Positions 5,672 to 30,645 of a stretch of 34,843 nucleotides of DNA are shown here, in pieces. This stretch comes from Nesterenkonia sp. F (GTDB lineage: Bacteria; Actinomycetota; Actinomycetes; Actinomycetales; Micrococcaceae): assembly GCF_000220985.1 (NCBI RefSeq), contig NZ_AFRW01000078.1, forward strand, positions 1 through 34,843. The letters run 5' to 3'. A model generated the notes under the pieces. The model saw only the letters and a program-made list of their open reading frames with translations. It was not told where the DNA came from and did not search any database. The first letter of the stretch is position 1; every line of letters starts with the position of its first letter. Made by a program: the position numbers and the translations under genes.

Positions 5672-7204
5672 TCAGTGGTCGCCGGGATGCGCCTGCGAGG
5701 CGGTGCCCGGCCGGTAGCGGCGGAGCAGCCAGCAGGTCGTCGTCGCCCCGACGACCATGGCGACGGCGACGGCGACCACCACGGCGAGGAAGGCGGCGTC
5801 CATGGCCGCGGCCGCGGCGTCGACGACCTCCGGCACGGGGGAGCTCAGCGCCTCGGTCGGGCTCATCGTCGTCAGGCCGGACGCTCCGTCGGGGACCTCC
5901 AGGGCGCGCAGATACGTGAAGTTCAGCACACTGCCCAGCACGGCGACGGCGACGAGCCCGCCGAACTCGTAGGAGACCTCCTCGATGGAGGCCGCCATCC
6001 CGGCCCGATGCCGCGGCACGTTGCCGACGATCGCCGTCGAGGCCACCGAGATCGCCGCGCCGAGGCCCAGCCCCAGGATCAGCAGTCCGGCGAGCAGCAG
6101 GGTCAGCTGGTCGGCCACGGCGGCGGCGACGACGATCCCGGCACCGAGCGCGGCCACCGTCAGGCCGCCGCCGATGAGCACCAGGAGGCCGAGTCGGTGC
6201 AGCACCGCTCCGCCGGCGAGCGCGACGGGCAGCGCCCCCAGCGAGAGCACCGCGACCACGAGCCCGGCCTGCAGCGGGGTGAAGCCCTCGACCAGCTGGT
6301 AGCGCTGGGTGATCGCGAACTGCAGCCCCATGATCGCGAAGATGCTCGCCCCCGCGGAGACCACCCCGGCGCTGAAGGCCCGATTGGTGAAGATGGTGAA
6401 GTCGATCAGCGGGTCGAGGAGCCGCCGCTGGCGCCGGACGAAGGCGCTGAGCGCGACGACGGCGACGACGGCCGCCGCCCCGGCGGTGGTCCAGTGCGGC
6501 GGGGCCGACGCCAGCGACTTGATGGCCAGCACCGCACCGCCCAGGCCCAGCAGCGCCTGGGCCGAGGAGATGCCGTCCCAGCGGCGGGAGGGGTCGGTGA
6601 TGTTGGGCGGGCCGAGGGCGATGATCGCCGCGGAGGCGGCGACGGCGACGGGCACGTTGACCAGGAAGACCGAGCCCCACCAGAAGTGCTCGAGGAGCAG
6701 GCCGCCGACCACGGGACCGGCGGCCAGGCCGGCGACGGAGATCCCGGCCCAGATGGAGATGGCCAGCGTGCGCTCGCGCTCGTCGGAGAAGGTCACCCGG
6801 ATCAGCGCCAGGGTGGCCGGCAGCATCGCCGCCGCACCGACGGCGAGCAGGCCCCGGGCGCCGATGAGGATCTCCGGGGACGGGGAGAACGCGGCGGTGA
6901 GCGAGGCCAGCGCGAAGAGCCCCAGGCCGTGCTGGAAGAGCCGCTTGTAGCCGATCCGGTCGCCCAGGCCGCCGGCTCCCGGCAGCAGGCCGGCGATCAC
7001 CAGCGGGTAGGCGTTGATGATCCACAGCGACTGGGCCGACGTCGCGCCGAGCCGCTCGGTGAGCACCGGCAGGGCGGTGTAGAGGATCGAGTTGTCCAGC
7101 GTGATGAGCGCCAGCGCCGCGGAGACGATCACCAGCACGCTCCATCGGCGCCACCGCGGCATGGCGGTCCGAGGCACCAGGGGGAGAGGAGAGGTCATCG
7201 TCAT
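5672..7204 (-). CDS. MFS multidrug exporter, DHA2 family (QacA/SmvA type)
   Basis: Proton-coupled drug/H+ antiporter, 510 residues, predicted 14 transmembrane helices. Visible family motifs: LDNSILYTALPVL in helix 1 (motif D1), GGLGDRIGYKRLF after helix 2 (motif A), ARGLLAVGAAAMLPATLALIR in helix 4 and GPVVGGLLLEHFWWGSVFLVNVP in helix 5-6 (motif C region). The stretch AAMLPATLALIRVTF / LLLEHFWWGSVFLVN is very like SmvA, which exports quaternary ammonium compounds and methyl viologen. ATG 7204 has no Shine-Dalgarno site. TACAGT lies seven bases before it, so the mRNA is probably leaderless. A 28-bp dyad covers this promoter. The TetR gene follows and likely controls it. Confidence 0.9.
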   Translation of the reverse strand: MTMTSPLPLVPRTAMPRWRRWSVLVIVSAALALITLDNSILYTALPVLTERLGATSAQSLWIINAYPLVIAGLLPGAGGLGDRIGYKRLFQHGLGLFALASLTAAFSPSPEILIGARGLLAVGAAAMLPATLALIRVTFSDERERTLAISIWAGISVAGLAAGPVVGGLLLEHFWWGSVFLVNVPVAVAASAAIIALGPPNITDPSRRWDGISSAQALLGLGGAVLAIKSLASAPPHWTTAGAAAVVAVVALSAFVRRQRRLLDPLIDFTIFTNRAFSAGVVSAGASIFAIMGLQFAITQRYQLVEGFTPLQAGLVVAVLSLGALPVALAGGAVLHRLGLLVLIGGGLTVAALGAGIVVAAAVADQLTLLLAGLLILGLGLGAAISVASTAIVGNVPRHRAGMAASIEEVSYEFGGLVAVAVLGSVLNFTYLRALEVPDGASGLTTMSPTEALSSPVPEVVDAAAAAMDAAFLAVVVAVAVAMVVGATTTCWLLRRYRPGTASQAHPGDH

Positions 7205-7324: not shown

Positions 7325-8629
7325 ATGCAGATCCCCGCCGAGCAGCCCTTCGTCCCCGTGATCACCGGCGGAGACGTGGGGGCCTATTCCTGGGCCCGCG
7401 AGTTCCACGAGGCCTTCGGCGTCGTCTCGGCGGTGGTGCCGACCGGGCTGAACCGGAACCTGAAGCACTCGCGCATCCTGGACTCCTTCCCGGCCGGAGT
7501 GATGACCGACGAGCAGACCACGATCCGCGCGCTGGTCGACGTCGCCGAGCGGCTGACCGACTCCGGGGCTAACCCCCGGCCGCTGGTGCTGCTGGCCTCC
7601 TACGACCATGTCGTCCAGGCGGTGCTGCGCCATCGCGAGGAGCTCGAGCGCTGGTACGTCATCCCCTTCCCGGACCGCGCGACGGTCGACGCGGTCGCCG
7701 ACAAGGAGTCCTTCGCCGCGATCTGCCGCCGGCTGGGCATTCCGCACCCGCGCGAGACACGGCTGTCGATGGCCGAGCACGACCCCGCACGGACCGAGCA
7801 GATCGTCGCCGAGGCCCTCGAGGAGCTGGGCGCGGACTTCCCGCTGATCCTCAAGGCCGCCGACAGCTGGGTCTGGGCGCAGACCACCTTCTCCGGGCGG
7901 CGGAAGGTCCACCGCGTCGACGACGCCGCCCAGCTCGGCGGGCTGCTCGACGCCGCGGCCGGCGCCGGCTTCGACGACGTCTTCCTGCTCCAGGAGCTCA
8001 TCCCCGGTCCCGACTCGCAGATGCGCGTGGGCTCCTACTTCCGCGACGCGGAGGGGCGGACCCGGCTGCGCGCCGTCGGCGAGGTGATCCTGGAGGACCA
8101 CGCGCCGGGGCTGGAGGGCAACTCCCTGGCGATCCTCACCTCGCAGGACCCGCGCATCGACGAGCATGCCGAGGCCTTCCTCGAGGAGGTCGACTGGCAC
8201 GGCTTCGCGATGTTCGACGTGAAGATCGACCCCCGCGACGGCACCCCGCAGTTCTTCGAGATGAATCCGCGGCTGGGCCGCAACCACTCCTATCTGACCG
8301 CCGGCGGAGTGAATCCGGCCGAGCTGATCGTCCAGCAGTACCTGGCCGGAATCCTCGACGCCGCAGCCCTGGCGGGCACGGGGGTCGAGCTGCCGGGCGA
8401 GCTGCCGGAGACCACGCGGCCGGACGCGCTGCACACCACGGTGCCGCTGTCGCTGGTGCGTCGCTTCGCCGACGCCGACCAGCGGGCGCGGGTGGACGCC
8501 GCGGCCCGTGCCGGGGCGGTGCGCTTCCCGTTCCGCTACCGGTCGGACTCCGATCCGCGGAAGCGGGCCTATCACGCCGCCGTGCTGCTGAAGAGCCTCC
8601 GCGACGCCCGTCAGCACCCTCCGGAGTGA
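7325..8629 (+). CDS. ATP-grasp carboxylate-amine ligase, D-aspartate ligase-like (COG3919 type)
   Basis: 434-residue ATP-grasp enzyme that would activate a carboxylate as acyl phosphate and join it to an amine. The opening FVPVITGGDVGAYSWAREFHEAFGV resembles the pre-ATP-grasp domain of Enterococcus D-aspartate ligase (Asl), whose length is also about 440. ATP-binding strand FPLILKAADS, hinge FLLQELIPGPDSQMRVGSY and metal ligands in PQFFEMNPRLGRNHSYL (Glu and Asn) are present. Asl adds D-Asp to lysine of the peptidoglycan precursor. The substrate here is unproven. The start at 7325 is supported by TAGTCT seven bases upstream. Longer upstream reading is an antisense shadow of the exporter. A FemX-like enzyme lies 900 bases further on, supporting a wall-bridge role. 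Confidence 0.8.
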   Translation: MQIPAEQPFVPVITGGDVGAYSWAREFHEAFGVVSAVVPTGLNRNLKHSRILDSFPAGVMTDEQTTIRALVDVAERLTDSGANPRPLVLLASYDHVVQAVLRHREELERWYVIPFPDRATVDAVADKESFAAICRRLGIPHPRETRLSMAEHDPARTEQIVAEALEELGADFPLILKAADSWVWAQTTFSGRRKVHRVDDAAQLGGLLDAAAGAGFDDVFLLQELIPGPDSQMRVGSYFRDAEGRTRLRAVGEVILEDHAPGLEGNSLAILTSQDPRIDEHAEAFLEEVDWHGFAMFDVKIDPRDGTPQFFEMNPRLGRNHSYLTAGGVNPAELIVQQYLAGILDAAALAGTGVELPGELPETTRPDALHTTVPLSLVRRFADADQRARVDAAARAGAVRFPFRYRSDSDPRKRAYHAAVLLKSLRDARQHPPE

Positions 8630-8638
8630 GTGAGCTGG

Positions 8639-8687
8639 TCGCGTCGTGTCGTCTCGGCCATTAGTCTGGGTCCATCGAGGACTGACG
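8639..8687 (+). promoter_or_regulatory. Promoter region of small membrane gene 1 (duplicated at 9106)
   Basis: A 49-base segment from TCGCG through TAGTCT (8662-8667) to CTGACG. It aligns without gaps to 9106-9154, sharing TCGCG, TAGTCTGGGTC, TCGAG and CTGACG at the same spacing. TAGTCT is the probable -10 box. It lies 44 bases before ATG 8712, so this gene has a leader. Confidence 0.6.
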
Positions 8688-8711
8688 GCGCCGAGACGAG
8701 GAGGGGCGGCG

Positions 8712-9131
8712 ATGGCTACGGCGACGAGCGGGAGCACCGAGGAGTCGGCGATCCCGCGGCGACGTCAGCAGCTGCGGCTCGACGTCGACCGGGCGGACGG
8801 GCTGGTCCGTCGCCTCCGCAATGAGCTGCGGACCCCAGGTTCCGCCCGCTTCCACTCCGTCGTGTCGGTGATGATGGGGCTGAACTTCTGCGCCATAGTC
8901 CTCGTGTCCGAACCGGACCTCTCGGGCGAACTCACCGTCTCGAGCGCGCTCTTCGCCCTGCAGCTGGTCGCCGCGCCCGGTTTCATGCTCTACGGCCTGG
9001 CGATCGATGCCGCGCGCGACCGGGCCGTCCGCGAGGGGCTCTACGTCGACGCCGGACCCGGTCCGCATCTCTCCGGCTCCCAGCGTCAGCGGGCCCGGTC
9101 GGATCTCGCGCCGTCCCGCGCTGGGAACTAG
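8712..9131 (+). CDS. Small two-helix membrane protein 1, paralogue of the next gene
   Basis: 139 residues, no family recognised. Arg-rich N-terminal cytoplasmic segment (IPRRRQQLRLDVDRADGLVRRLRNEL), two transmembrane helices (VVSVMMGLNFCAIVLV and SSALFALQLVAAPGFMLYGLAI), then a basic/acidic tail ending LSGSQRQRARSDLAPSR. The segment from about residue 30 aligns with the next protein, including SxxRxxxVVS, Asn in helix 1, PD in the loop, and the nearly identical tail SGSQRQRARS. ATG 8712 is chosen for its GGAGGGG upstream and because the duplicated promoter lies just before it. The stop codon TAG is part of the next gene's -10 box. Confidence 0.72.
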   Translation: MATATSGSTEESAIPRRRQQLRLDVDRADGLVRRLRNELRTPGSARFHSVVSVMMGLNFCAIVLVSEPDLSGELTVSSALFALQLVAAPGFMLYGLAIDAARDRAVREGLYVDAGPGPHLSGSQRQRARSDLAPSRAGN

Positions 9132-9154
9132 TCTGGGTCTGTCGAGACCTGACG
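9106..9154 (+). promoter_or_regulatory. Promoter region of small membrane gene 2 (duplicate of 8639)
   Basis: Gap-free copy of 8639-8687 with TAGTCT at 9129-9134. The TAG of this -10 box is the stop codon of the preceding gene, so duplication included the promoter. ATG 9175 is 40 bases downstream. Confidence 0.6.
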
Positions 9155-9174
9155 ATGCGCGGAAGAGGGCGACG

Positions 9175-9516
9175 ATGAACGACCAGAAGCCGAGGGGCCT
9201 GAGGCGGCTCCTCGCCAGCGACCTGTCGAGCCCGCGGCGCGTGCGCGAGGTCGTCTCGCTCCTGTGCCTGCTGGGTCTGGTCAACGCGTCGAGCGCGAGC
9301 ATCGCCCCGGATGTGGAGAACACGTTCGACGCCGTGGCTATGAGCCTGTGGCTGGTCGGCGCCTGCGGATTGGTCTCCGCCGCCATGGTGATCTACGCGC
9401 TGTACCGTGAGGACGTCGAGGCCGGCCGCTGGGATGCCGAGGACCTGGAGGAGAGGCCGCAGCTCTCCGGATCGCAGCGTCAGCGCGCCCGGTCGGCGTC
9501 GAGAGCAGAGCGCTGA
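9175..9516 (+). CDS. Small two-helix membrane protein 2, paralogue of the previous gene
   Basis: 113 residues, no family recognised. Basic N-terminus (QKPRGLRRLLASDLSSPRRV), helix 1 (VVSLLCLLGLVNASSASI), helix 2 (AMSLWLVGACGLVSAAMVIYAL), acidic stretch (EDVEAGRWDAEDLEERP) and the tail LSGSQRQRARSASRAER. The SGSQRQRARS tail is identical to that of the preceding protein and better conserved than the helices, so it is probably functional. The start has AAGAGGG upstream. It is convergent with the FemX-like gene, 22 bases between ends. Confidence 0.72.
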   Translation: MNDQKPRGLRRLLASDLSSPRRVREVVSLLCLLGLVNASSASIAPDVENTFDAVAMSLWLVGACGLVSAAMVIYALYREDVEAGRWDAEDLEERPQLSGSQRQRARSASRAER

Positions 9517-9538
9517 GCTCCGCCTCCGTCCGGGCCGC

Positions 9539-10717
9539 TCAGCGGCGGGCTATGTAGAGCCGGAAGGCCCTGGCCAGCAGTGGGCTGATCTCGAAGTCCC
9601 ACTCGCCCTGAGTCTGCACGACGTCGGCGCCCATGGTCGTCTTGAAGCGGGTGAGCCCGGCCAGCTCGTGCTGCGGGTCCAGCGACGGGCTCAGCCCGCC
9701 CAGGTCGTACCAGCGGCATCCGGCGGCCAGCGCGTCCTCGATCTGGCGCAGCTGCAGCGCCCGCGGGGCGTAGCGCTTGCGCTCCTGCGCCGCCGAGGCG
9801 CCGTAGACGTACCAGGCGAAGCGGCGCTGGCGGACGAAGATCGCCGCGGCCAGCGGCGTCTCGCCCAGGTGGGCGAAGTACAGCGTGCACTCGGTGTCGT
9901 CTGCGGCGTTGAGCTCGCGATGCATCCGCTGGAAGTAGCTCAGCGGCCGGCCGGTGAAGCCGTCTCGCTCGGCGGTCTCCTCGTAGAGCTCCTGCCAGAC
10001 GGGCAGATCCTCCTCGCCGCCGACGCTGATGGTCAGCTCCGAGCGGGTCGACTTGCGGGTCTGGCGCCGCGAGGTCTGGTCCATCCGCGCCAGCACCGCG
10101 TCGACGTCGACGGCGGCGCCGTCGTCGTCGACCAGCGGGATGCGGGCCTGGAACTGCGGCTGGCCGGCCTCGAACTCCTCCGACTCGCCGGGGGCGCGCC
10201 AGCCCAGCGCGGTCAGCTCCTCGCGCGCGGCCTCGGCCTCGTCGTCGACGGCGATCGGCTCCAGCTCGGTGAGCATCCGGTGCTCGCCGGCGGCCAGGGC
10301 CTTGCGGACGTCGCCGGCGGCCCAGCGGCGGCGCACGCCGGGCAGGCCCATGCGGACCAGGAAGGCGCCGTCGCGGCGCAGCCGCTCGGTGAGCGCGGTA
10401 AGCACGGAGGCCAGGTCGACGTCGGCGGGGTCGAAGACCGGGCCCTCCGCCAGGTAGGCCAGGGTCCGACCGCCGACCACCGGCACCGCCGAGGGCACCG
10501 GCAGCGGCCGGTGCAGCACCAGCGTGGCGGCGACGAGGCGGTCGTCGGCGTAGACGCCGAGAGACTCGCCGCGCCAGCCGCTCTTCACCTCCGGCCAGCG
10601 GGGATTCTGCAGGAACGAGGAGGTCGGGTGGGCGGCGAGGAACTCGGCATGGGCGTCGGCGGAGAGCGGGGCGACCGTCATCGTCGGCGCGTCCGGGCGC
10701 GGCGTCGTGCTGTTCAC
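9539..10717 (-). CDS. FemA/FemX-like peptidoglycan bridge aminoacyltransferase
   Basis: Aminoacyl-tRNA:lipid II transferase-like protein, 392 residues, with two GNAT-like folds. Seen: N-terminal SSFLQNPRWPEVKSGW, central RMDQTSRRQTRKSTR (the RxxxRR basic patch of FemABX), LYEETAERDGFTGRPLSYFQRMH (helical arm), FVRQRRFAWYVYGASAAQERKRYAPRALQ and C-terminal WYDLGGLSPSLDP...LTRFKTTMGADVVQTQGEWDFEI, all characteristic of Fem proteins. Such enzymes add Gly, Ala or Ser to the stem-peptide lysine. GTG 10717 is preferred because TAGGCT lies seven bases upstream (10730-10725). ATG 10681 is the alternative. Together with the ATP-grasp ligase it may build a two-residue bridge. Confidence 0.87.
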   Translation of the reverse strand: MNSTTPRPDAPTMTVAPLSADAHAEFLAAHPTSSFLQNPRWPEVKSGWRGESLGVYADDRLVAATLVLHRPLPVPSAVPVVGGRTLAYLAEGPVFDPADVDLASVLTALTERLRRDGAFLVRMGLPGVRRRWAAGDVRKALAAGEHRMLTELEPIAVDDEAEAAREELTALGWRAPGESEEFEAGQPQFQARIPLVDDDGAAVDVDAVLARMDQTSRRQTRKSTRSELTISVGGEEDLPVWQELYEETAERDGFTGRPLSYFQRMHRELNAADDTECTLYFAHLGETPLAAAIFVRQRRFAWYVYGASAAQERKRYAPRALQLRQIEDALAAGCRWYDLGGLSPSLDPQHELAGLTRFKTTMGADVVQTQGEWDFEISPLLARAFRLYIARR

Positions 10718-24156: not shown

Positions 24157-25101
24157 TCAGCCGCGCGGCACCAGGTCCAGGACCGTGGCCTCCGGCGGAC
24201 AGTTGAACCGCAGCGGCGCGGTCCGTGAGGTGCCGACGCCGGCCGAGACGTGCAGCGGGACCTCGCGGCCGGTCGAGGAGCGTGTGGTGGACAGTCCGCT
24301 GGCCTGCGACCGGGGGAGGTCGCAGTTGGTCACCAGAGCACGGCGGCCGGGCAGGCAGACCTGTCCGCCGTGGGTGTGGCCGGCCAGGATCAGGTCCGCG
24401 CCGGTGTCGGCGAAGGTGGTCAGCGTCGAGCCCATCGGCGCGTGGGCGATGCCCAGTCGCAGCGCGTCGTGCTGCGCATCGTGCAGCGCGGCGTCCTGGG
24501 GCCAGCCGGCGAAGCGATCCAGGTCGATGTGCGGGTCGTCGACGCCGGAGAGGTGCACGGACCGGCCGGCGACGACGGTCTCCCGGGCTCGATTGCGCAG
24601 ATCGATCCAGCCGGAGCCGGTGAAGCCGGCGACCAGCTGGTCGGTGGGCAGATGCTCCGGCTCGGCGGGCGGCGCCGAGGGGCCGAACAGATAGCCCAAC
24701 GGGTTCTTCAGCCGGGGCCCGTGGTAGTCGTTGGAGCCGGTGACGAAGACGCCCGGGAAGCGGCGCAGCGGCCCCAGCGCCTCCAGCAGCTCGGGCACGG
24801 CCTCGCGGTGCGAGAGATTGTCCCCGGTGTTGACCACCAGATCCGGCTGCAGCTCCGCCAGGGACTGCAGCCAGGCGAACTTCCTTCGCTGGCCGGGGAC
24901 GTAGTGGATGTCCGAGATGTGCAGGATCCGCAGCGGCCGCGCCCGAGGCGGCAGCACCGCGGGTTGCTCGTGCCGGATCGTGAAGCGGGTCAGGCCGATC
25001 GTGCCGGCGTAGGCCAGCGTCCCCAGCCCGACGGCGGCCGTTCCCGCGGCGGCCAGGGCCAGGGGGCGGGGGATCCGCGAGAGAGTGCTGCAGTCGGGCA
25101 C
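24157..25101 (-). CDS. Membrane-anchored metallophosphoesterase (YaeI-like)
   Basis: 314-residue calcineurin-like phosphoesterase, probably outward-facing. N-terminal hydrophobic helix (LALAAAGTAAVGLGTLAYAGTIGL, about 14-37), then the metal motifs: HISDIHYVPG (D-x-H), NTGDNL (G-D), FVTGSNDYH (G-N-D) and LAGHTHGGQ (GHTHGG). Spacing matches the YaeI/YkuE group, which cleaves phosphoesters including UDP-diacylglucosamine-type or nucleotide substrates. The exact one is unknown. GTG 25101 has CGGAG nine bases upstream. It lies downstream of the PBP gene by 82 bases on the same strand, as its Mycobacterium counterpart Rv3683 does beside ponA2. Confidence 0.9.
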   Translation of the reverse strand: MPDCSTLSRIPRPLALAAAGTAAVGLGTLAYAGTIGLTRFTIRHEQPAVLPPRARPLRILHISDIHYVPGQRRKFAWLQSLAELQPDLVVNTGDNLSHREAVPELLEALGPLRRFPGVFVTGSNDYHGPRLKNPLGYLFGPSAPPAEPEHLPTDQLVAGFTGSGWIDLRNRARETVVAGRSVHLSGVDDPHIDLDRFAGWPQDAALHDAQHDALRLGIAHAPMGSTLTTFADTGADLILAGHTHGGQVCLPGRRALVTNCDLPRSQASGLSTTRSSTGREVPLHVSAGVGTSRTAPLRFNCPPEATVLDLVPRG

Positions 25102-25183
25102 GGCGATGCTCCGTGATCTCGATCGGGCGCGTCGGCCGCCGATGGGGGCCGACGCGCGAGGGGCCGGTCGGGGCCGACGGGGA

Positions 25184-27490
25184 TCAGTCGTCCGAGTCGT
25201 CCGAGTCGTCCGAGTCGTCCGAGTCGTCCGAGCTGTCGGAGCTATCGTCGGAGCTGTCGTCGGAGCTGTCGTCGGAATCGTCGTCCGACGCCCCCTCGGG
25301 CTCGGTGCCGTCCCCGTCGGCCGTCACGCCCTGATACCGCACCGTCGACCCGGGATCCTCCCACGGCGAGTCGTCCGGTTCGGGGAACTCGTCGGTCTCG
25401 TACGACGGGGCGACCTCGGACATGAACGACTCCCACTGGGGGTAGGCGATGGTGGAGCCGTAGACGTGCTCGTGGGTCGTGCCGTTGATCTCGATGCCCT
25501 CGCGACCGTCCGCGGCGAGCTCGCTGCCCATCGAGTACTGGCCCTCGGTGGTGCCGACCCAGCTCGCCGTCGTCAGCCCCGACGTGGACCCGATGAACCA
25601 TGTGGAGGACTCGTTGTTGTTCGTCCCCGTCTTGCCGATGGCGGGGAAGTCGAGGTCATCGTCGCCCTCCTTGTGTCCGGCGATGTGGCCCAGGGTCACG
25701 TTGACCTCATTGATGACCTCTTCGTCGATCACCTGCTCGCAGTTCTTCTCCGGCACCTCATACTCGTTGCCCTCGGTGTCGGTGACCTCGGTGATCGCCC
25801 GCGGTCGGCAGTACTCCCCGCCGTTGGCGAAGGCGGCGTAGGCCGCCGCCTGGGTCAGCGGAGCGATCTCCGCACCGCCGAGGATGAAGGCAGGCTCCTT
25901 CGGGTTCATCTGCTCGCTGCCTCGCGCGGTGTGGATGTTCAGGCGATTCGTCACATCCGTGATGGCGCACATGTCCATCTCCTTGGCCACGGCCACGGTG
26001 GCGGTGTTCAACGACCAGTACAGCCCGTAGTCGAAGGTCATCTCGCGGTAGGCGTCGATGGCGTTGGCGATGGACCAGCCGTTCGTGTCGTCGAGCTGGA
26101 ACGAGCCTCCGGGCAGGCAGCTGGCCTCCCAGGTGCTGCCGCGCTCGTAGTGGTCCTTGCTCGCATCGACCATGTCCATCATCGAGTTGCCCTGCTCGAC
26201 CCAGGCCGCGGCCACATAGGGCTTCAGCGAGGAGCCGCCCTGGAAGCCGCCGCTTCCGCCGTAGGAGAAGTCGGTGTTCCAGTTGATCACGTTGCTCGCG
26301 GGGTCATCCTCGGCGCTGTACTCCGAGTTCTGGGCCATGGCCTTGATGTTGCCGCTGCCCGGCTCCACCGTCACCAGGCTCGCACCGACCTGCTGGGTGG
26401 TGTCGTCCTGCGCGTAGTCCTCGGTCGGGACGCTGTCGTCGAAGGTCGCGTCCGCCTCCTCCTGCAGATCCGGGTCCAGCGTGGTGGTGATGCGCAGCCC
26501 GCCCCGGTTCAGCAGCCGTTCCCGCGCATCGCGGTCCGGGCCGAAGGTATCGTCGGCCAGGACGACGCGCCGGACGTAGTCGCAGAAGTAGGCCGCTCCG
26601 TCGGCCGCGATGCAGCCGTCGGGACGGGTGTTGTGCTCGGCTCCGAGGTCCTGCCGGACCGCCTGACGGTAGAGCTTGTCGCTGATCACGCCGTCGTCGT
26701 GCATCACGCTCAGCACGACGTCGCGCCGCTCCCGGGCGGCCTCGGCGTTGTCCACCGGGTCGTAGCCGTTGGGGGACTGGACCATGCCGGCCAGCGTGGC
26801 CGACTGGGACAGCGAGAGCTCGCTGGCCGAGACTCCCCAGTAGTGCTGGGCGGCGGCCTCGACCCCGTAGACGCGTCCGCCGAAGGGCACGATGTTCAGA
26901 TAGCCCTGGAGGATCTCGTCCTTGGTCATCTCCTCCTCGGCGGCGACGGCCAGCTTCATCTCGCGGAGCTTGTCCGCGTAGGTCTTGGTGCCCGAGATCG
27001 TGGTGCGCTCGCCCCGCAGATTCTGGGCATTGATGAGCACGTTGTTCACGTACTGCTGGGTCAGCGTCGAGGCGCCCTGCTGAGTGTCGGTGGTCAGGTT
27101 GTTGACCACGGCGCGGGCCAGGCCGCGGGCGTCCACCCCGTCATGCTCGTAGAACCGCTCGTCCTCGATGGCGACGATGGCGTCCTTCATGTGCTGCGAG
27201 ATCTCGTCGAACTCCACCGGCTCGCGATCCTCCGCGTAGAAGGTCGCCAGCTCCGTCTCGCCGTCGGCGGCGTAGACGTGGGAGGGCACGGAGAGCGGCT
27301 CCTCGTCCATCTGCGCCGGCAGCGTGTCCAGGAGGTCCTTGCCCGCCGCGGCGGCCGCGCCGCCGGTGGCGGCGAGGGGGAAGATGAGCCCGGCGGCCAG
27401 CACGCCGCACAGTCCGCTCACACCCAGGAAGGACATGATCTTGCCGAGCGTGGTGGCCGTGTCGAACAGCGGGGACTTGGAGGAAGCCAT
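25184..27490 (-). CDS. Class A penicillin-binding protein (GT51 + transpeptidase), PonA2-like
   Basis: Bifunctional wall synthase of 768 residues. One N-terminal helix (about 18-40), glycosyltransferase GT51 motifs EDERFYEHDGVD (catalytic Glu), GASTLTQQYVNN, EILQGYLNIVPFGG and YWG, then the transpeptidase: GGSSLKPY (SxxK nucleophile), YWSLNTATVA (SxN) and GKTGTNN (KTG). The C-terminus ends in a low-complexity Asp/Ser tract of about 35 residues encoded by 9-bp repeats. The start is ATG 27490 because TACCAT precedes it by seven bases; the frame to 27526 is noise. Divergent from DUF4177. Synteny with metallophosphoesterase, DUF4177, RidA, Crp and MarP identifies it as the PonA2 counterpart. Confidence 0.95.
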   Translation of the reverse strand: MASSKSPLFDTATTLGKIMSFLGVSGLCGVLAAGLIFPLAATGGAAAAAGKDLLDTLPAQMDEEPLSVPSHVYAADGETELATFYAEDREPVEFDEISQHMKDAIVAIEDERFYEHDGVDARGLARAVVNNLTTDTQQGASTLTQQYVNNVLINAQNLRGERTTISGTKTYADKLREMKLAVAAEEEMTKDEILQGYLNIVPFGGRVYGVEAAAQHYWGVSASELSLSQSATLAGMVQSPNGYDPVDNAEAARERRDVVLSVMHDDGVISDKLYRQAVRQDLGAEHNTRPDGCIAADGAAYFCDYVRRVVLADDTFGPDRDARERLLNRGGLRITTTLDPDLQEEADATFDDSVPTEDYAQDDTTQQVGASLVTVEPGSGNIKAMAQNSEYSAEDDPASNVINWNTDFSYGGSGGFQGGSSLKPYVAAAWVEQGNSMMDMVDASKDHYERGSTWEASCLPGGSFQLDDTNGWSIANAIDAYREMTFDYGLYWSLNTATVAVAKEMDMCAITDVTNRLNIHTARGSEQMNPKEPAFILGGAEIAPLTQAAAYAAFANGGEYCRPRAITEVTDTEGNEYEVPEKNCEQVIDEEVINEVNVTLGHIAGHKEGDDDLDFPAIGKTGTNNNESSTWFIGSTSGLTTASWVGTTEGQYSMGSELAADGREGIEINGTTHEHVYGSTIAYPQWESFMSEVAPSYETDEFPEPDDSPWEDPGSTVRYQGVTADGDGTEPEGASDDDSDDSSDDSSDDSSDSSDDSDDSDDSDDSDD
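25187..25290. repeat. 9-bp tandem repeat coding the Ser-Asp tail of the PBP
   Basis: Five exact copies of GTCGTCCGA (25187-25231) adjacent to the stop codon, then degenerate copies to about 25290. They read as Asp-Asp-Ser units on the minus strand. Copy changes would alter length in frame. Confidence 0.85.
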
Positions 27491-27497
27491 GTCGACC

Positions 27498-27503
27498 ATG
27501 GTA
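27498..27503 (-). promoter_or_regulatory. -10 box of the PBP gene, leaderless
   Basis: TACCAT on the minus strand, seven bases before ATG 27490. Confidence 0.55.
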
Positions 27504-27551
27504 ACGGTCGCGGGCGCGCGCTTCACTGGACGTCTGCTGGGTGTGCGCGGC

Positions 27552-27557
27552 TAGGCT
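27552..27557 (+). promoter_or_regulatory. -10 box of the DUF4177 gene, leaderless
   Basis: TAGGCT followed by GAGGGC and ATG 27564. It is back to back with the PBP promoter. Confidence 0.55.
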
Positions 27558-27563
27558 GAGGGC

Positions 27564-27734
27564 ATGACTGCATCTCAGACGCGGTGGGAGTACGCCACCA
27601 TTCCGCTCATCATCCACAACACCAAGGGCATCCTCGACCAGTGGGGCGACGAGGGCTGGGAGCTCGTGACCGTGCTGCCCGGGCCCGAGGGCAACGCCCC
27701 CGTCGCCTACCTGAAGCGTCCGAAGGCCGACTGA
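27564..27734 (+). CDS. DUF4177-like small protein
   Basis: A 56-residue gene, easily missed by length cut-offs. The protein begins MTASQTRWEYATIPLI, continues HNTKGILDQWGDEGWELVTV, and ends APVAYLKRPKAD. WEY at the start and a central LxxxGxxGWELV are the DUF4177 pattern. TAGGCT lies six bases before ATG 27564 and the stop is at 27732. Mycobacterium has an equivalent short gene (Rv3678A) between ponA2 and the RidA gene, so order supports the call. It is probably cotranscribed with RidA, 83 bases downstream. No function is known. Confidence 0.88.
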   Translation: MTASQTRWEYATIPLIIHNTKGILDQWGDEGWELVTVLPGPEGNAPVAYLKRPKAD

Positions 27735-27817
27735 GCACGTCGGACCTGCGCAGGATCCGTCCGGGATCTGCGGAGAACCCGCTGGGCCTGCTGGACCAGC
27801 CGAGCATGAGGAGTGCG

Positions 27818-28306
27818 ATGAGCGAGGAGACCACGACCGGCGGCACCTCCCGGGTGGAGGCGCGGCTCGCCGAGATCGGCCTGACCGTCCCCGAGGTCGT
27901 GCCGCCGGTGGCGGCCTATCAGCCGGCGGTCGTCGCCGACGGCGTCGTCTACACCGCCGGGCAGCTGCCGCTGGTCGACGGCGAGCTGCCGCACCGCGGC
28001 AAGGTCGGCGCCGAGGTGACCGCCGAGCAGGCGACCGAGCTGGCACGGCAGTGCGCGTTGAACTGTCTGGCGGCTCTGAAGCACGCGGTCGGCGATCTGG
28101 ACCGGATCACGCGGATCGCGAAGGTCGGAGGCTTCGTCGCCTCCGCCCCGAGCTTCACGGGCCAGCCCGCGGTGCTCAACGGGGCCTCCGAGCTCTTCGG
28201 GCAGGCCTTCGGCGACGCCGGCCGGCACGCTCGGAGCGCAGTCGGCGTGGCCGTGCTGCCCATGGACACGCCCGTCGAGGTCGACGTCATCGCGCACATC
28301 GCCTGA
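27818..28306 (+). CDS. RidA family protein (YjgF/YER057c/UK114)
   Basis: 162 residues. RidA proteins hydrolyse reactive enamine/imine intermediates formed by PLP enzymes such as threonine dehydratase. Seen: YQPAVVADGVVYTAGQLPLVDGEL, KVGAEVTAEQATELARQCALNCLAALK, and the C-terminal HARSAVGVAVLPMDTPVEVDVIA, with the Arg corresponding to the substrate-carboxylate Arg105 of E. coli RidA (PARSCVEVARLP). About 20 residues are added at the N-terminus relative to E. coli. ATG 27818 is chosen because GAGGAG (27808-27813) is its ribosome site; the ATG at 27806 lacks one. It converges on the Crp gene across two hairpins. Confidence 0.92.
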   Translation: MSEETTTGGTSRVEARLAEIGLTVPEVVPPVAAYQPAVVADGVVYTAGQLPLVDGELPHRGKVGAEVTAEQATELARQCALNCLAALKHAVGDLDRITRIAKVGGFVASAPSFTGQPAVLNGASELFGQAFGDAGRHARSAVGVAVLPMDTPVEVDVIAHIA

Positions 28307-28313
28307 CTGCCGA

Positions 28314-28346
28314 CTCCCCGGGCGCTCCCCGGGCGCTCCCCGGGCG
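28314..28346. repeat. Three perfect 11-bp tandem repeats after RidA
   Basis: CTCCCCGGGCG repeated at 28314, 28325 and 28336. The third copy runs into the left arm of the 32-bp-arm hairpin. Confidence 0.85.
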
Positions 28347-28411
28347 ATGACTCCGTGGAAGGTGTGGGAATGTCGCCGTATTCCCACACCTTCCACGGAG
28401 TCATCGCCCGG
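28340..28411. repeat. Perfect inverted repeat with 32-bp arms
   Basis: Left arm 28340-28371 and right arm 28380-28411 are exact complements, with an 8-base loop GTCGCCGT. The core of the arm reads GACTCCGTGGAAGGTGTGG. No T-run is adjacent. The ATGTCG at the loop is shared with the inverted repeat at 14728, which suggests one family. Confidence 0.92.
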
Positions 28412-28451
28412 AGGCCGGAGGGGCGCCGCTCGACGAGCGGACACGACGAAA

Positions 28452-28478
28452 GCCCCGCCGGTGCGGCGGGGCCTTCGT
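28452..28478. terminator. Bidirectional intrinsic terminator between RidA and Crp genes
   Basis: Stem GCCCCGCCG / CGGCGGGGC (28452-28460 and 28464-28472) with a 3-base loop, preceded by CGAAA and followed by CTTCGTCT. On the minus strand it lies just after the Crp stop with a TTTCGTC tail. Confidence 0.8.
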
Positions 28479-28503
28479 CTAGGCCGAGGCGTCGGCGGGA
28501 CGC

Positions 28504-29181
28504 TCAGCGGGAGCGCTGGCGGATGCGCTGGATGTCGAGGATCACGACGGCGCGGGCCTCGAGGCGCAGCCAGCCGCGCTGGACGAACTCGGCCAGCGCC
28601 TTGTTGACGGTCTCGCGGGAGGCGCCGACCAGCTGGGCCAGCTCCTCCTGGGTGAGCTCGTGGGCCACCAGCACGCCGTCCGGCGCCGGACGGCCGAAGC
28701 GGTCGGCCAGGTCCAGCAGGGCCTTCGCCACTCGGCCGGGGACGTCGGAGAAGACCAGGTCCGCCAGCGACTCGTTGGTCCGGGTCAGGCGCTTCGCCAG
28801 CGCCTGCAGCAGCTGCACCGAGACCTCCGGCGTGGAGGTGATGACCTCGCGCAGGCTCTCATGCCTCAGGCCGGCCAGCCGCGTCTCGGACACCGCCGTG
28901 GCGGTGGCGGTGCGCGGCGCCGGGTTGAACAGCGCCATCTCGCCGAAGACCTCGCCCGGGCCGAGCACGGCGAGCAGGTTCTCCCGCCCGTCCGGCGTGG
29001 TGCGGCCGAGCTTGATCTTGCCGGAGACGATGAAATAGAGCTGGTCGCCCTGGTCGCCCTCGTGGAAGACGGAGCTGCCGCGGGAGAGATCGACCTCGGA
29101 GAGCTCGGCGGTCAGAGCGGCGAAGACGTCGTCGTCGACGGTCGCGAAGAGTGGTGCGCGACGCAGTACTTCAAGATCCAT
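28504..29181 (-). CDS. crp: Crp/Fnr-family cAMP-responsive regulator, Crp/GlxR type
   Basis: 225-residue global regulator. Cyclic-nucleotide domain with FGEMALFNPAPRTATATAV, very close to FGELSIFDPGPRTSSAT of GlxR and Mycobacterium Crp, including the Arg-Thr pair that holds the cAMP phosphate. A dimerisation helix (LLQALAKRLTRTNESLADLVF) follows, then the winged HTH LTQEELAQLVGASRETVNKALAEFVQRGWL. ATG 29181 (MDLEVLRRAPLF) is the family start. It is preceded by GAGAGGAAG and GGAAG. The 7-bp-arm dyad at 29221 lies in its promoter and could be an autoregulatory site. Position between RidA and the MarP-like protease is the same as in Mycobacterium. Confidence 0.93.
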   Translation of the reverse strand: MDLEVLRRAPLFATVDDDVFAALTAELSEVDLSRGSSVFHEGDQGDQLYFIVSGKIKLGRTTPDGRENLLAVLGPGEVFGEMALFNPAPRTATATAVSETRLAGLRHESLREVITSTPEVSVQLLQALAKRLTRTNESLADLVFSDVPGRVAKALLDLADRFGRPAPDGVLVAHELTQEELAQLVGASRETVNKALAEFVQRGWLRLEARAVVILDIQRIRQRSR

Positions 29182-29220
29182 GGGCTTCCGTTCTTCCTCT
29201 CCGAGATGCATGCGGTCTCG

Positions 29221-29239
29221 CTGGTAATGAAGTTACCAG
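29221..29239. promoter_or_regulatory. Dyad CTGGTAA-N5-TTACCAG in the crp promoter
   Basis: Perfect 7-bp arms around five bases, 40 bases upstream of ATG 29181. On the minus strand it contains TAACTT, a possible -10 box. The arms differ from the usual Crp half-site TGTGA, so the binding protein is uncertain. Confidence 0.55.
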
Positions 29240-29466
29240 GTCAGGCCACCCCCGGGAAACGGCCCGCGCGGGGCAGACGGGTGTGAGAACCTGGACTTCG
29301 ATCATCCGACCGGCCGAACACCTTCGCATGTCGCCGCCCTCCGCGTCGAATCGTCTCGGATCTCGGGGCCTCGACCTGGGATCATGCGCTCGCGCGACGC
29401 GGAGGCCGTCGTCCGCCCCGCCGTCGTCCGCCCGCCGCACCGCGGGCCGAGGAGAGCTTCGACCCC

Positions 29467-30645
29467 ATGGGACCCCTGCTGCTCGATCTGATCCTGGCCC
29501 TCGTTCTGCTGTCGGTGTTCGTCTCCGGGCTGCGCAAGGGGATCTGGATCACCGTCGGGGGCGTGGCCGGCTTCCTGGTGGGCGCCGCGGCGGCCTTCTT
29601 CGCCATCCCGATCGTCTCCGGCTGGGTCTCGGACCCCATCTGGCGGGTGATCGCGGTGCTCGGCGCCGCCCTGGTGCTCGTCGTCGCCGGCCACGCCCTG
29701 GGCACAACCGCCGGGGCCGAGCTGCAGCGGCTGACCCGCTCGCCGACGGTGCGCACCCTCGGTGCCCTCATCGGCGGGGTGCTGAACCTCGCGGTGGCCG
29801 GACTGGTGATCGCCGCGCTGTCCTTCTCCGTCGGGGCGATGGGCTTCCCCCAGGTCAACCAGCACATGCGGCAGTCGCACGTGCTGCAGGCGATCGACGT
29901 CGCGGTGCCGGACGCCGCGGAGATGTGGTTCGCCCAGGTGCGCACGCTGGTGCTCGAATCCGAGATCCCGCAGATCGCCCAGCCGCTGGTGCCGCAGCGC
30001 GAAGAGGCCCCCGACGACGTCGAGCTCAGCGACGGCGCCGAGGAGGCCGCCGGCTCGGTGGCGCGGATCGTCGGCGTCGCCGAGCAGTGCGGGCAGAGCC
30101 AGAGCGGGTCCGGCTTCGTCGTCTCTCCGACGCGGGTGGTCACCAACGCCCACGTGGTCGCCGGGGTCGGCTCGCCGAGCGTCGAGCTGCCCGACGGGCA
30201 GGTGGTCACCGGCCAGGTGGTGCACTTCGACCCGCGGCAGGACCTGGCGGTGCTGGCCGTCGACGAGCTGCAGGCCGAACCGCTGGAGTTCGACGACCCG
30301 ATGGAGGTCGGCGAATCCGGCTACATCATGGGGTACCCCGCCGGAGGCCCGTTCCAGGCCGGCGCGGCGGTCGTGCAGGCCCGGGACATCTCGACCATCG
30401 AGGGGATCTACGGCGGACCGTCGAGCTCGCTGGAGGTCTACCAGCTCAACGCCGAGGTCCGGCAGGGCAACTCCGGCGGGCCGCTGCTGGACGAGGACGG
30501 CGACGTCGTCGGCGTGGTCTTCGCCCGCGCGCTGGAGGGCGACGCCGTCGGCTTCGCGCTGACCGCCGAGCAGGCCGGCGACGTGCTCACCGAACCCGGC
30601 CAGTACACCGAGACGGTCTCCACCGGGCAGTGCGTGGAGGGCTGA
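29467..30645 (+). CDS. MarP-like membrane serine protease (CvpA domain + trypsin-like)
   Basis: 392-residue periplasmic protease, counterpart of Mycobacterium MarP (Rv3671c), needed for acid resistance in that species. Four transmembrane helices of CvpA/colicin V type in residues 1-125, a linker, then a chymotrypsin-fold protease with SGSGFVVSPTRVVTNAHVV (His229), DPRQDLAVL (Asp259) and VRQGNSGGPLL (Ser336). Cys208 (AEQCGQS) and Cys389 (TGQCVEG) match the redox disulfide of MarP. Its usual neighbours nth and the NUDIX gene are absent between it and crp. ATG 29467 has AGGAGAG about 11 bases upstream. Divergent from crp. Confidence 0.93.
   Translation: MGPLLLDLILALVLLSVFVSGLRKGIWITVGGVAGFLVGAAAAFFAIPIVSGWVSDPIWRVIAVLGAALVLVVAGHALGTTAGAELQRLTRSPTVRTLGALIGGVLNLAVAGLVIAALSFSVGAMGFPQVNQHMRQSHVLQAIDVAVPDAAEMWFAQVRTLVLESEIPQIAQPLVPQREEAPDDVELSDGAEEAAGSVARIVGVAEQCGQSQSGSGFVVSPTRVVTNAHVVAGVGSPSVELPDGQVVTGQVVHFDPRQDLAVLAVDELQAEPLEFDDPMEVGESGYIMGYPAGGPFQAGAAVVQARDISTIEGIYGGPSSSLEVYQLNAEVRQGNSGGPLLDEDGDVVGVVFARALEGDAVGFALTAEQAGDVLTEPGQYTETVSTGQCVEG

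Follow-up and report, generated by a model that had tools for sequence, protein, structure and literature searches.

An ATP-grasp ligase and a FemX-like transferase in Nesterenkonia sp. F as a candidate gene pair for a two-residue interpeptide bridge

The ligase and transferase genes

The window analysed here, i.e. the whole 34,843-nt stretch of contig NZ_AFRW01000078.1 from the salt-loving Nesterenkonia sp. F, contains a 434-codon ORF on the plus strand (7325..8629), in agreement with the 434-residue ATP-grasp protein reported in the earlier note. ORF analysis, tblastn, profile searches, AlphaFold and Foldseek characterise its product as an Asl-like ATP-grasp ligase, predicted to add a dicarboxylic residue. 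The second gene (9539..10717) encodes a FemABX aminoacyl transferase, predicted to add the first residue (Gly) to Lys. It is indeed present at about the 900 bases noted previously (909 bp), but on the minus strand; the two genes are convergent, which rules out an operon. The 909-bp spacer (8630..9538) holds two small plus-strand ORFs (ending at 9131 and 9516), for which profile searches returned no family match; these lie outside the conserved pair, and the gap of about 120 bp between the ligase and FemX genes of N. halophila leaves no space for them. An MFS transporter gene (5672..7204, minus strand) flanks the pair.

A Pfam search with the ligase sequence alone gave no family under 0.01, and family-model searches found no curated model that names this ligase. 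The profile of the ligase family, compared with the PDB, identified ATP-grasp enzymes, and Foldseek searches with the AlphaFold model (pLDDT 94.1) matched ATP-grasp folds, namely biotin carboxylases and an L-amino-acid ligase (TM about 0.5). Since these matches reach only the level of the ATP-grasp superfamily, the structure prediction proposed earlier delivered the fold, while the Foldseek comparison is uninformative on the substrates. The tblastn searches revealed lactobacillar ligases with 28–32% identity (E-values down to 4e-43) and homology over about 76% of the window ligase. Among them is a Latilactobacillus curvatus ligase (E-value 1e-38), whose gene neighbours that of an amino-acid racemase (TIGR00035, 238.7 bits); another homologous lactobacillar ligase gene adjoins an asparagine synthase gene. 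These loci resemble the setting of AslA, RacD and AsnH, as described in PMC4155827, and by that description the L. curvatus ligase appears to be AslA itself. This homology to ligases encoded in Asl-like surroundings upholds the proposed resemblance to D-aspartate ligase.

The catalytic set of the window ligase is complete (K127, K177, D298, E312, N314, R316, R319), and the KKDENRR set is found in 101 of the 104 ligases aligned, the window ligase among them. Thus, the protein shares with the Asl/AslA D-aspartate ligases of Enterococcus faecium, Lactococcus lactis and lactobacilli the ATP-grasp type, a length of about 430 aa, the catalytic set and the predicted role in the bridge, the lactobacillar ligases (rather than the E. 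faecium or L. lactis proteins) having served for the comparison. It differs from Asl in the modest sequence identity given above, in having FemX rather than a racemase as its partner, and in its predicted substrates: the acceptor would be a Fem-added residue and the donor L-Glu. Against the lactobacillar ligases, the window protein has His321 in place of Ser (three sequences) and Glu224 in place of Asp (two of the three).

The FemABX ORF scores 146.2 bits with the Pfam FemAB model (PF02388, cut-off 24), and matches solved FemX chains (E-value about 1e-17) and glycyl transferase structures; with the NCBIfam equivalog for FemX alanyl transferases (NF047883) it reaches 79.6 bits, below the cut-off of 500. 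Homology begins near residue 12 and an ATG is present at codon 13, while the GTG start gives 392 codons. The protein belongs to the same FemABX family as FemX of Weissella viridescens and FmhB/FemAB of Staphylococcus aureus. The known FemX/FemAB systems elongate the bridge with further Fem enzymes; unlike these, the single FemX of the window would leave the next step to an ATP-grasp ligase. A search of the genome found a single FemAB gene and a single gene of the ligase family, and with this gene content a bridge made by FemX only (A3alpha) is unlikely. Most sampled genomes of ligase-free genera yield several FemAB matches (counted as pieces, not as genes), the exceptions being genus g14 and most of genus g8, which lack the ligase and yield few FemAB matches. 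As multiple matches are typical of ligase-free genera and the window genome has a single FemAB gene, a multi-Fem bridge is unlikely here.

Distribution, coupling and ligase subtypes in Micrococcaceae

In a survey of 295 Micrococcaceae genomes from 32 genera (threshold E 1e-10), the ligase was found in 94 genomes: all 94 sampled from 13 genera, including Nesterenkonia, Citricoccus, Auritidibacter and Glutamicibacter, and none of the 201 from the other 19, with Arthrobacter dokdonellae, Psychromicrobium and Kocuria on the ligase-free side. In 46 of the 72 genomes that carry both, the ligase gene adjoins FemAB, in four different gene orders and with gaps of 19–909 bp (median 67.5), so it is very unlikely that their placement side by side arose by chance. 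They were not found as neighbours in the remaining 26, among which genome G016 could count either way, as its ligase is located at the end of a contig and its FemAB opens a different one. In genome G003 both genes group with those of genera g12/g11, unlike those of the other 7 genomes of genus g4, and the two were apparently acquired together. Family f11 has two ligase copies in each of its 23 matched genomes, 20 of which lack FemAB; two copies might conceivably correspond to two acidic residues.

Within genera g22 and g11 the ligase subtype tracks the presence of FemX, and a single ligase clade was rejected for both (P-values 0.0006 and 5e-54, respectively). The ligases that occur without FemX (12 genomes of g22 and 2 of g11, three of them with a weak FemAB match only) form a separate clade with its own residues, exemplified by Asp224, which is present in 14/14 of these sequences and in 1/54 FemX-positive ligases of other genera. 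The window ligase exhibits Glu224, the FemX-type residue. Asp224 was also considered as a strict indicator that Lys is the acceptor and fails as such in Nesterenkonia, where it occurs in 5/22 FemX-positive and 6/9 FemX-free rows of the alignment; the ligase of genome G017 is of the FemX clade and has Glu224 despite the lack of any FemAB match. His occupies position 321 of the window ligase and of each of the 70 ligases from other Micrococcaceae genera; Ser or Asn takes its place in the three lactobacillar ligases and in clade A/B of Nesterenkonia. The window ligase falls into one group with the ligases of Citricoccus, Auritidibacter, g21 and g2.

A vacant ligase site and the racemases of Nesterenkonia

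About 20 kb from the ligase-FemX pair, the window includes a further locus that is absent from the earlier note. A class A penicillin-binding protein gene (25184..27526, minus strand), which in other Nesterenkonia lies at the edge of the resident ligase locus, is present along with a RidA-like gene (27833..28306, plus strand, start approximate) and a gene for a Crp-family regulator (28504..29211, minus strand; 95.6% identical to that of genome G107), while a colicin V/trypsin-like protein (29467..30645, plus strand) is the outer marker of the same locus. The interval between RidA and Crp (28307..28503; 207 bp by tblastn ends) contains a terminator-like palindrome and no ligase; 19 of the 21 other Nesterenkonia genomes have a ligase of a different subtype between these two genes. 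The window species, N. halophila and genome G153 possess only the Citricoccus-like type, while genome G138 has kept the resident ligase alongside a Citricoccus-like copy that is catalytically dead; all four members of this putative swap clade thus have intact copies of one subtype only. In G153 and G138 the MFS transporter gene adjoins FemX with no ligase in between, which marks the insertion point. We infer that the resident ligase was lost from the 28307–28503 site in the window species. The proposed exchange probably changed the acidic residue of the bridge; whether it was from D-Asp to L-Glu is uncertain.

A two-cysteine aspartate racemase is present in 11 of 23 Nesterenkonia genomes, including all 9 of clade A, and a canonical one was not found in the window genome (93% complete). 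The racemase-type genes of the latter comprise MurI, a third, weak PF01177 match and an atypical Thr/Cys TIGR00035 member, which is over the cut-off, has GTN replacing the CN motif and is 25–28% identical to the two-Cys racemase of the clade-A genomes. No TIGR00035 racemase over cut-off was found in the sampled genomes of Citricoccus, Auritidibacter, g21 and g2. TIGR00035 racemases over cut-off also turned up in 18 genomes from genera without the ligase, so that such a racemase does not by itself point to a wall ligase. As a test of the donor, the aspartate racemase is informative within Nesterenkonia; for the window, where the racemase is atypical, it points neither way.

Predicted pathway and alternatives

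Bridges of the A4alpha type in the Schleifer-Kandler scheme, which combine Gly or Ala with a dicarboxylic residue, are an old textbook chemotype. Searches of the open-access literature found no genes assigned to a two-residue A4alpha bridge in Micrococcaceae and no named genes for the second bridge step, which agrees, within that literature, with the earlier note's statement that the two-enzyme route is undescribed for this group. We propose, with a probability of roughly 0.78 based on comparative sequence analysis, that the pair builds such a bridge in two steps. By analogy with its family, FemX would take one small amino acid (probably Gly here) from its aminoacyl-tRNA and attach it to the stem Lys at the epsilon-amino group. 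The ligase, by analogy with Asl, would convert a carboxyl group of a free dicarboxylic amino acid into an acyl phosphate, and would then join the acidic residue to the new amino terminus left by FemX. In bridges of this kind D-Ala is cross-linked to the amino group of the acidic residue, and the D-Ala of the neighbouring stem would later be attached in this way. The most likely donor is L-Glu, which would give L-Lys-Gly-L-Glu; the carriers of the window-type ligase presumably have L-Glu walls. The division of labour suggested in the earlier note, with FemX for the first residue and the ligase for the dicarboxylic one, receives comparative support from the adjacency in four gene orders, the presence in whole genera, the homology to a lactobacillar ligase encoded beside a racemase, the coupling of subtype to FemX in two genera and the apparent joint gain in G003. 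Counting against it are the convergent layout with its 909-bp spacer, the 26 genomes in which the two genes were not seen side by side, and G017, whose ligase is of the FemX clade although no FemAB match was obtained there.

The same pathway might use D-Asp (or D-Glu) as the donor, as in Asl, leading to L-Lys-Gly-D-Asp, an alternative with appreciable odds, although clearly below even. According to PMC5288335, strain CD08_7, identified as N. jeotgali and thus a different species from the window host, has an L-Lys-Gly-D-Asp wall, termed characteristic of the genus, which speaks for D-Asp; our open-access search found no wall type for N. halophila, N. halobia or the host of the window. The TIGR00035 racemase of the window genome could also supply a D-residue, and MurI makes D-Glu. 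However, that racemase has the altered motif and low identity described above, the ligase relatives in Citricoccus, Auritidibacter, g21 and g2 come without a TIGR00035 member over cut-off, and the window ligase exhibits His321 where the lactobacillar and clade A/B ligases have Ser or Asn. D-Asp thus seems the less likely donor for this subtype.

The predicted acceptor is contested by the fact that the known Asl enzymes act on Lys directly (PMC4155827) and that the 14 FemX-free genomes of g22 and g11 still have a ligase. Perhaps the window ligase, too, puts the acidic residue straight on Lys, with FemX acting elsewhere (at a separate position, or in a minor or unrelated transfer)? We regard this as improbable: the FemX-free ligases constitute the separate Asp224 clade, while the window protein has Glu224, and both the adjacency and the apparent joint acquisition bind FemX to the ligase. 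Nor does a role outside the wall appear plausible, in which the ligase would be a COG3919-like enzyme that serves a different pathway (ligation of natural products, protein tails or polyamines) and is close to FemX only by chance. COG3919-like enzymes are diverse, the window ligase presumably falls under this label, and the lack of a curated model naming it would agree with such a role. This is the least credible of the alternatives, since the pairing with FemX is kept through four gene orders, the ligase is present by whole genera and adjoins the class A penicillin-binding protein in other Nesterenkonia, and each of the four swap-clade genomes retains one intact subtype.

Returning to the two-step bridge, a broader version of it may be put forward tentatively, with chances close to balanced: that the A4 bridge of Micrococcaceae follows a modular gene code, the presence or absence of FemX setting the first residue and the ligase subtype (with or without the two-Cys aspartate racemase) the acidic one. 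The window would then catch a swap, in which a Citricoccus-type (L-Glu) ligase came in and the PBP-linked resident was lost, the sister genome presenting the opposite outcome with a dead newcomer.

The classification of actinobacteria has long drawn on wall bridges that combine a small with an acidic residue. If the proposed pathway is correct, the bridge type would become readable from Micrococcaceae genomes, and unassigned ATP-grasp genes of 13 genera would gain a function. Nesterenkonia would represent a natural experiment on the exchange of a single ligase gene and, under the modular reading, the wall chemotype, for all its long use as a taxonomic marker, would shift by a single-gene replacement. 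The enzyme pairs described here may serve for studying how Asl-type ligases choose their donor (D-Asp or L-Glu) and their acceptor (Lys or a Fem-added residue).

The ligase and FemX genes, and the relation of the ligase to Asl

The ATP-grasp ligase gene of the window (7325–8629, plus strand) is an ORF of 434 residues, and the FemX gene (9539–10717, minus strand) is an ORF of 392 residues from a GTG start; the two are convergent and separated by 909 bp, which contain two small plus-strand ORFs. The 392-residue protein matches PF02388 (FemAB) with 146.2 bits and solved FemX chains with E about 1e-17, which confirms the FemABX protein that the earlier note had placed some 900 bases from the ligase. 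The ligase alone matches no Pfam family at 0.01, and in NCBIfam it finds only weak carbamoyl-phosphate-synthase-like models, far under their cut-offs. A profile of 57 ligase relatives recovered ATP-grasp enzymes in the PDB; Ras chains returned by the same search (E 0.0009–0.009) were taken as spurious. The AlphaFold model (54 sequences; pLDDT 94.1, pTM 0.92) was placed by Foldseek among ATP-grasp enzymes, e.g. biotin carboxylases and an L-amino-acid ligase. The ORF is thus present as proposed, and its ATP-grasp fold is backed by both family profile and model.

The two small ORFs of the spacer (8630–9538) match no known family. Both are preceded by the motif tagtctgggtc and have a LSGSQRQRARS stretch at the C-terminus, which would fit a tandem duplication that gave rise to one from the other. 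In N. halophila the gap between ligase and FemX is too short to accommodate them.

Tblastn searches of named plasmids revealed homologs of the ligase in three lactobacilli, Limosilactobacillus fermentum, Lactobacillus crispatus and Latilactobacillus curvatus, with 28–32% identity over 76–77% of its length and E values from 1e-38 to 4e-43. A Subdoligranulum record matches as well (8e-40), and 15 further records match more weakly. In L. curvatus the gene is preceded by one for an amino-acid racemase (TIGR00035, 238.7 bits), and in L. crispatus by asnB. This setting resembles that of AslA of lactic acid bacteria, described in PMC4155827 as an ATP-grasp enzyme that attaches D-Asp to Lys and whose operon in L. 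lactis also includes racD. The suggested resemblance of the ligase to D-aspartate ligase is supported by this homology. Residues K127, K177, D298, E312, N314, R316 and R319 are common to 101 of 104 ligases; in two lactobacillar rows Asp takes the place of E312, and most of the catalytic set is gone from L107, a ligase row of the Nesterenkonia genome G138. FemABX transferases, Asl ligases and A4alpha walls are each already known; judged by titles and abstracts, a search of the open-access literature yielded no paper that links a wall of this type to a paired FemX and ATP-grasp ligase, many wall-chemistry papers being in subscription journals outside that search.

Distribution of the ligase and its coupling with FemX

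Among 295 Micrococcaceae genomes of 32 genera, the ligase was detected (E 1e-10) in 94 genomes of 13 genera, and FemAB in 274. The ligase is present in 94/94 genomes of these 13 genera and in 0/201 of the other 19. Ligase-bearing genera include Nesterenkonia, Citricoccus (g4), Auritidibacter (g16) and Glutamicibacter (g23, G220); at the same threshold the ligase is absent from Arthrobacter dokdonellae (g24), Kocuria (g3), genus g14 and Psychromicrobium (g26), a label made less sure by a vector-like small replicon. The plasmid of g14 shares 87% identity with one from Micrococcus (query coverage 88%). In the Psychromicrobium genome, the second replicon (G026 C2, L146; 3716 bases) has an exact, full-length counterpart in a named record. 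Coverage of 80% or more is reached by five records, and partial matches number at least 5,000; the best matches fall on TEM and tet(C) genes. This replicon may be a laboratory vector that entered the assembly.

An order-wide search at E 1e-40, in which no more than 6 candidates were scored for each genome, gave matches in 152 of 297 genomes, representing 52 of 92 genera; the ligase family is therefore widespread, with or without FemX. Of the 147 ligase-matched genomes outside Micrococcaceae 60 were checked, and 16 possess FemAB, which in G431 and G405 (family f16) lies no more than about 100 bp from the ligase and within about 0.4–0.7 kb in G348, G320, G361, G341 and G432. Family f11 (G305 to G562) has two ligase-family genes in all 23 listed genomes, with FemAB missing in 20 of them; the bridges of this family may contain two acidic residues.

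Within Micrococcaceae, FemAB is present in 72 of the 94 ligase genomes, weak only (E about 5e-4) in 3 and not detected in 19. The ligase adjoins FemAB in 46 of the 72 (gaps between matches 19–909 bp, median 67.5 bp): 28 in tandem with FemX first, 16 divergent, one with the ligase first (G228) and one, the window, convergent, an order found also in N. halophila. In g21 and most of g4 the divergent form sits next to rpoC and the rpsL-rpsG-fusA genes, and much of the tandem form adjoins CsoR and a metal ATPase gene. The two genes were not found as neighbors in 26 of the 72, including G016, where the ligase lies at a contig edge and the two may still adjoin.

In a quick IQ-TREE analysis of 104 ligase rows, 12 genomes of g22 without a good FemAB match cluster with 2 FemX-free g11 genomes, while 3 FemX-bearing g22 genomes cluster with Glutamicibacter and 2 FemX-bearing g11 genomes with g12. 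As a guess, g22 may correspond to Paeniglutamicibacter, some of which have been described with L-Lys-L-Glu. A single-clade constraint was rejected for g22 (AU p 0.0006) and g11 (AU p 5e-54), the groups having been picked with the tree already in view. Over 100 tree rows, FemX was gained or lost at least 7 times, a count made without a shuffled control, with G168, G180 and G190 (weak FemAB hits) scored as lacking FemX and G140 and three lactobacillar rows omitted. Asp224 occurs in 14/14 FemX-free g22 and g11 ligases versus 1/54 FemX-positive ligases of other genera, a pattern that may reflect one or two events; an exception is G017, which has no FemAB, yet Glu224. Both FemX and the ligase of G003 (labelled g4) group with g12/g11, on long branches, as if acquired together.

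Proposed exchange of the ligase in Nesterenkonia

The genome of the window (G000, contig C61; 2.81 Mb, 93% complete) has its closest named ligase relative in N. halophila DSM 16378 (89% identity), with the same FemX (91%) beside it, about 120 bp apart, which places the host in Nesterenkonia. Among the 21 other Nesterenkonia genomes, 19 carry a ligase of a different subtype in the interval from RidA to Crp, close to a class A PBP; in G218 and G012 the ligase is close by, outside that interval. The window contains this locus without the ligase (24157–30645), and its RidA–Crp interval is 207 bp (N. halophila 98 bp, G153 118 bp) versus 1,252–2,527 bp in the 19 ligase-bearing genomes. A long palindrome at this vacant site (28345–28406) is perhaps a two-way terminator. 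The five-gene tree of the locus unites the window, N. halophila, G153 and G138 (100/100) beside the nine genomes of clade A (84/82), from which we infer that the resident ligase was lost.

By profile search, G000, N. halophila and G153 have a single ligase apiece, the latter two with additional partial matches (E 2e-4 or weaker). All three ligases are of the Citricoccus-like subtype. The gene adjoins FemX in G000 and N. halophila and lies at another place in G153, where the region is collinear with the window except that MFS directly adjoins FemX. Since MFS and FemX are direct neighbors also in G138, the simplest reading is that the ligase was inserted beside FemX in the lineage of the window. 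G138 has an intact PBP-linked ligase and a Citricoccus-like copy without K127, K177, D298, E312 and N314. This copy (L107, C35:76531–77763) retains an open frame, has lost the catalytic Lys, Asp, Glu and Asn, and lies on a long branch; it may be decayed or re-purposed. Each of the four genomes thus has an intact enzyme of one type only, as expected if both types fill the same role.

Six Nesterenkonia genomes (G245, G290, G178, G199, G253 and G228; L124, L125, L126, L128, L130 and L131) possess two ligase paralogs at the PBP locus, with a RidA gene between them in five; FemAB is missing in G245, G290 and G199. Such paralogs may attach two successive acidic residues.

Wall chemistry and the acidic donor

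The wall of Citricoccus is described as L-Lys-Gly-L-Glu, as in some Nesterenkonia species other than N. jeotgali, and that of Kocuria as A3alpha Lys-Ala3-4; beyond the papers cited below, the match between ligase distribution and published wall types is drawn from general background. The open-access literature yielded no wall type for the window species. A strain identified as N. jeotgali is reported to have an L-Lys-Gly-D-Asp wall, stated in PMC5288335 to be characteristic of Nesterenkonia. According to PMC4786123, walls of Arthrobacter in the old sense are of type A3alpha or A4alpha, and the strains in its table are A3alpha, Lys-Ala2-3 or Lys-Ser-Thr-Ala; glutamic acid in the bridge of Glutamicibacter is mentioned in passing in PMC10300444.

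An orthologous two-cysteine aspartate racemase is present in all nine clade-A genomes and in G178 and G253, both with two ligases. A different TIGR00035-family racemase, with a Thr/Cys site, is encoded in G000 (C22, L152:1435–2223) and G153 (74% identical to each other). No match to this racemase family was obtained in the other ten sampled Nesterenkonia; 3 genomes of the other 12 ligase genera (G246, G190, G094) and 18 of ligase-free genera score above the racemase cut-off. At position 321, His is invariant among the 70 ligases from other Micrococcaceae genera and is shared by the four Citricoccus-like Nesterenkonia ligases; the remaining Nesterenkonia ligases and the three lactobacillar enzymes have Ser or Asn. 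From the racemase distribution and the pattern at residue 321 we infer D-Asp as the likelier donor for the clade-A ligase and L-Glu (probability about 55%) for the window type, for which a D-residue is the less probable, though still appreciable, alternative.
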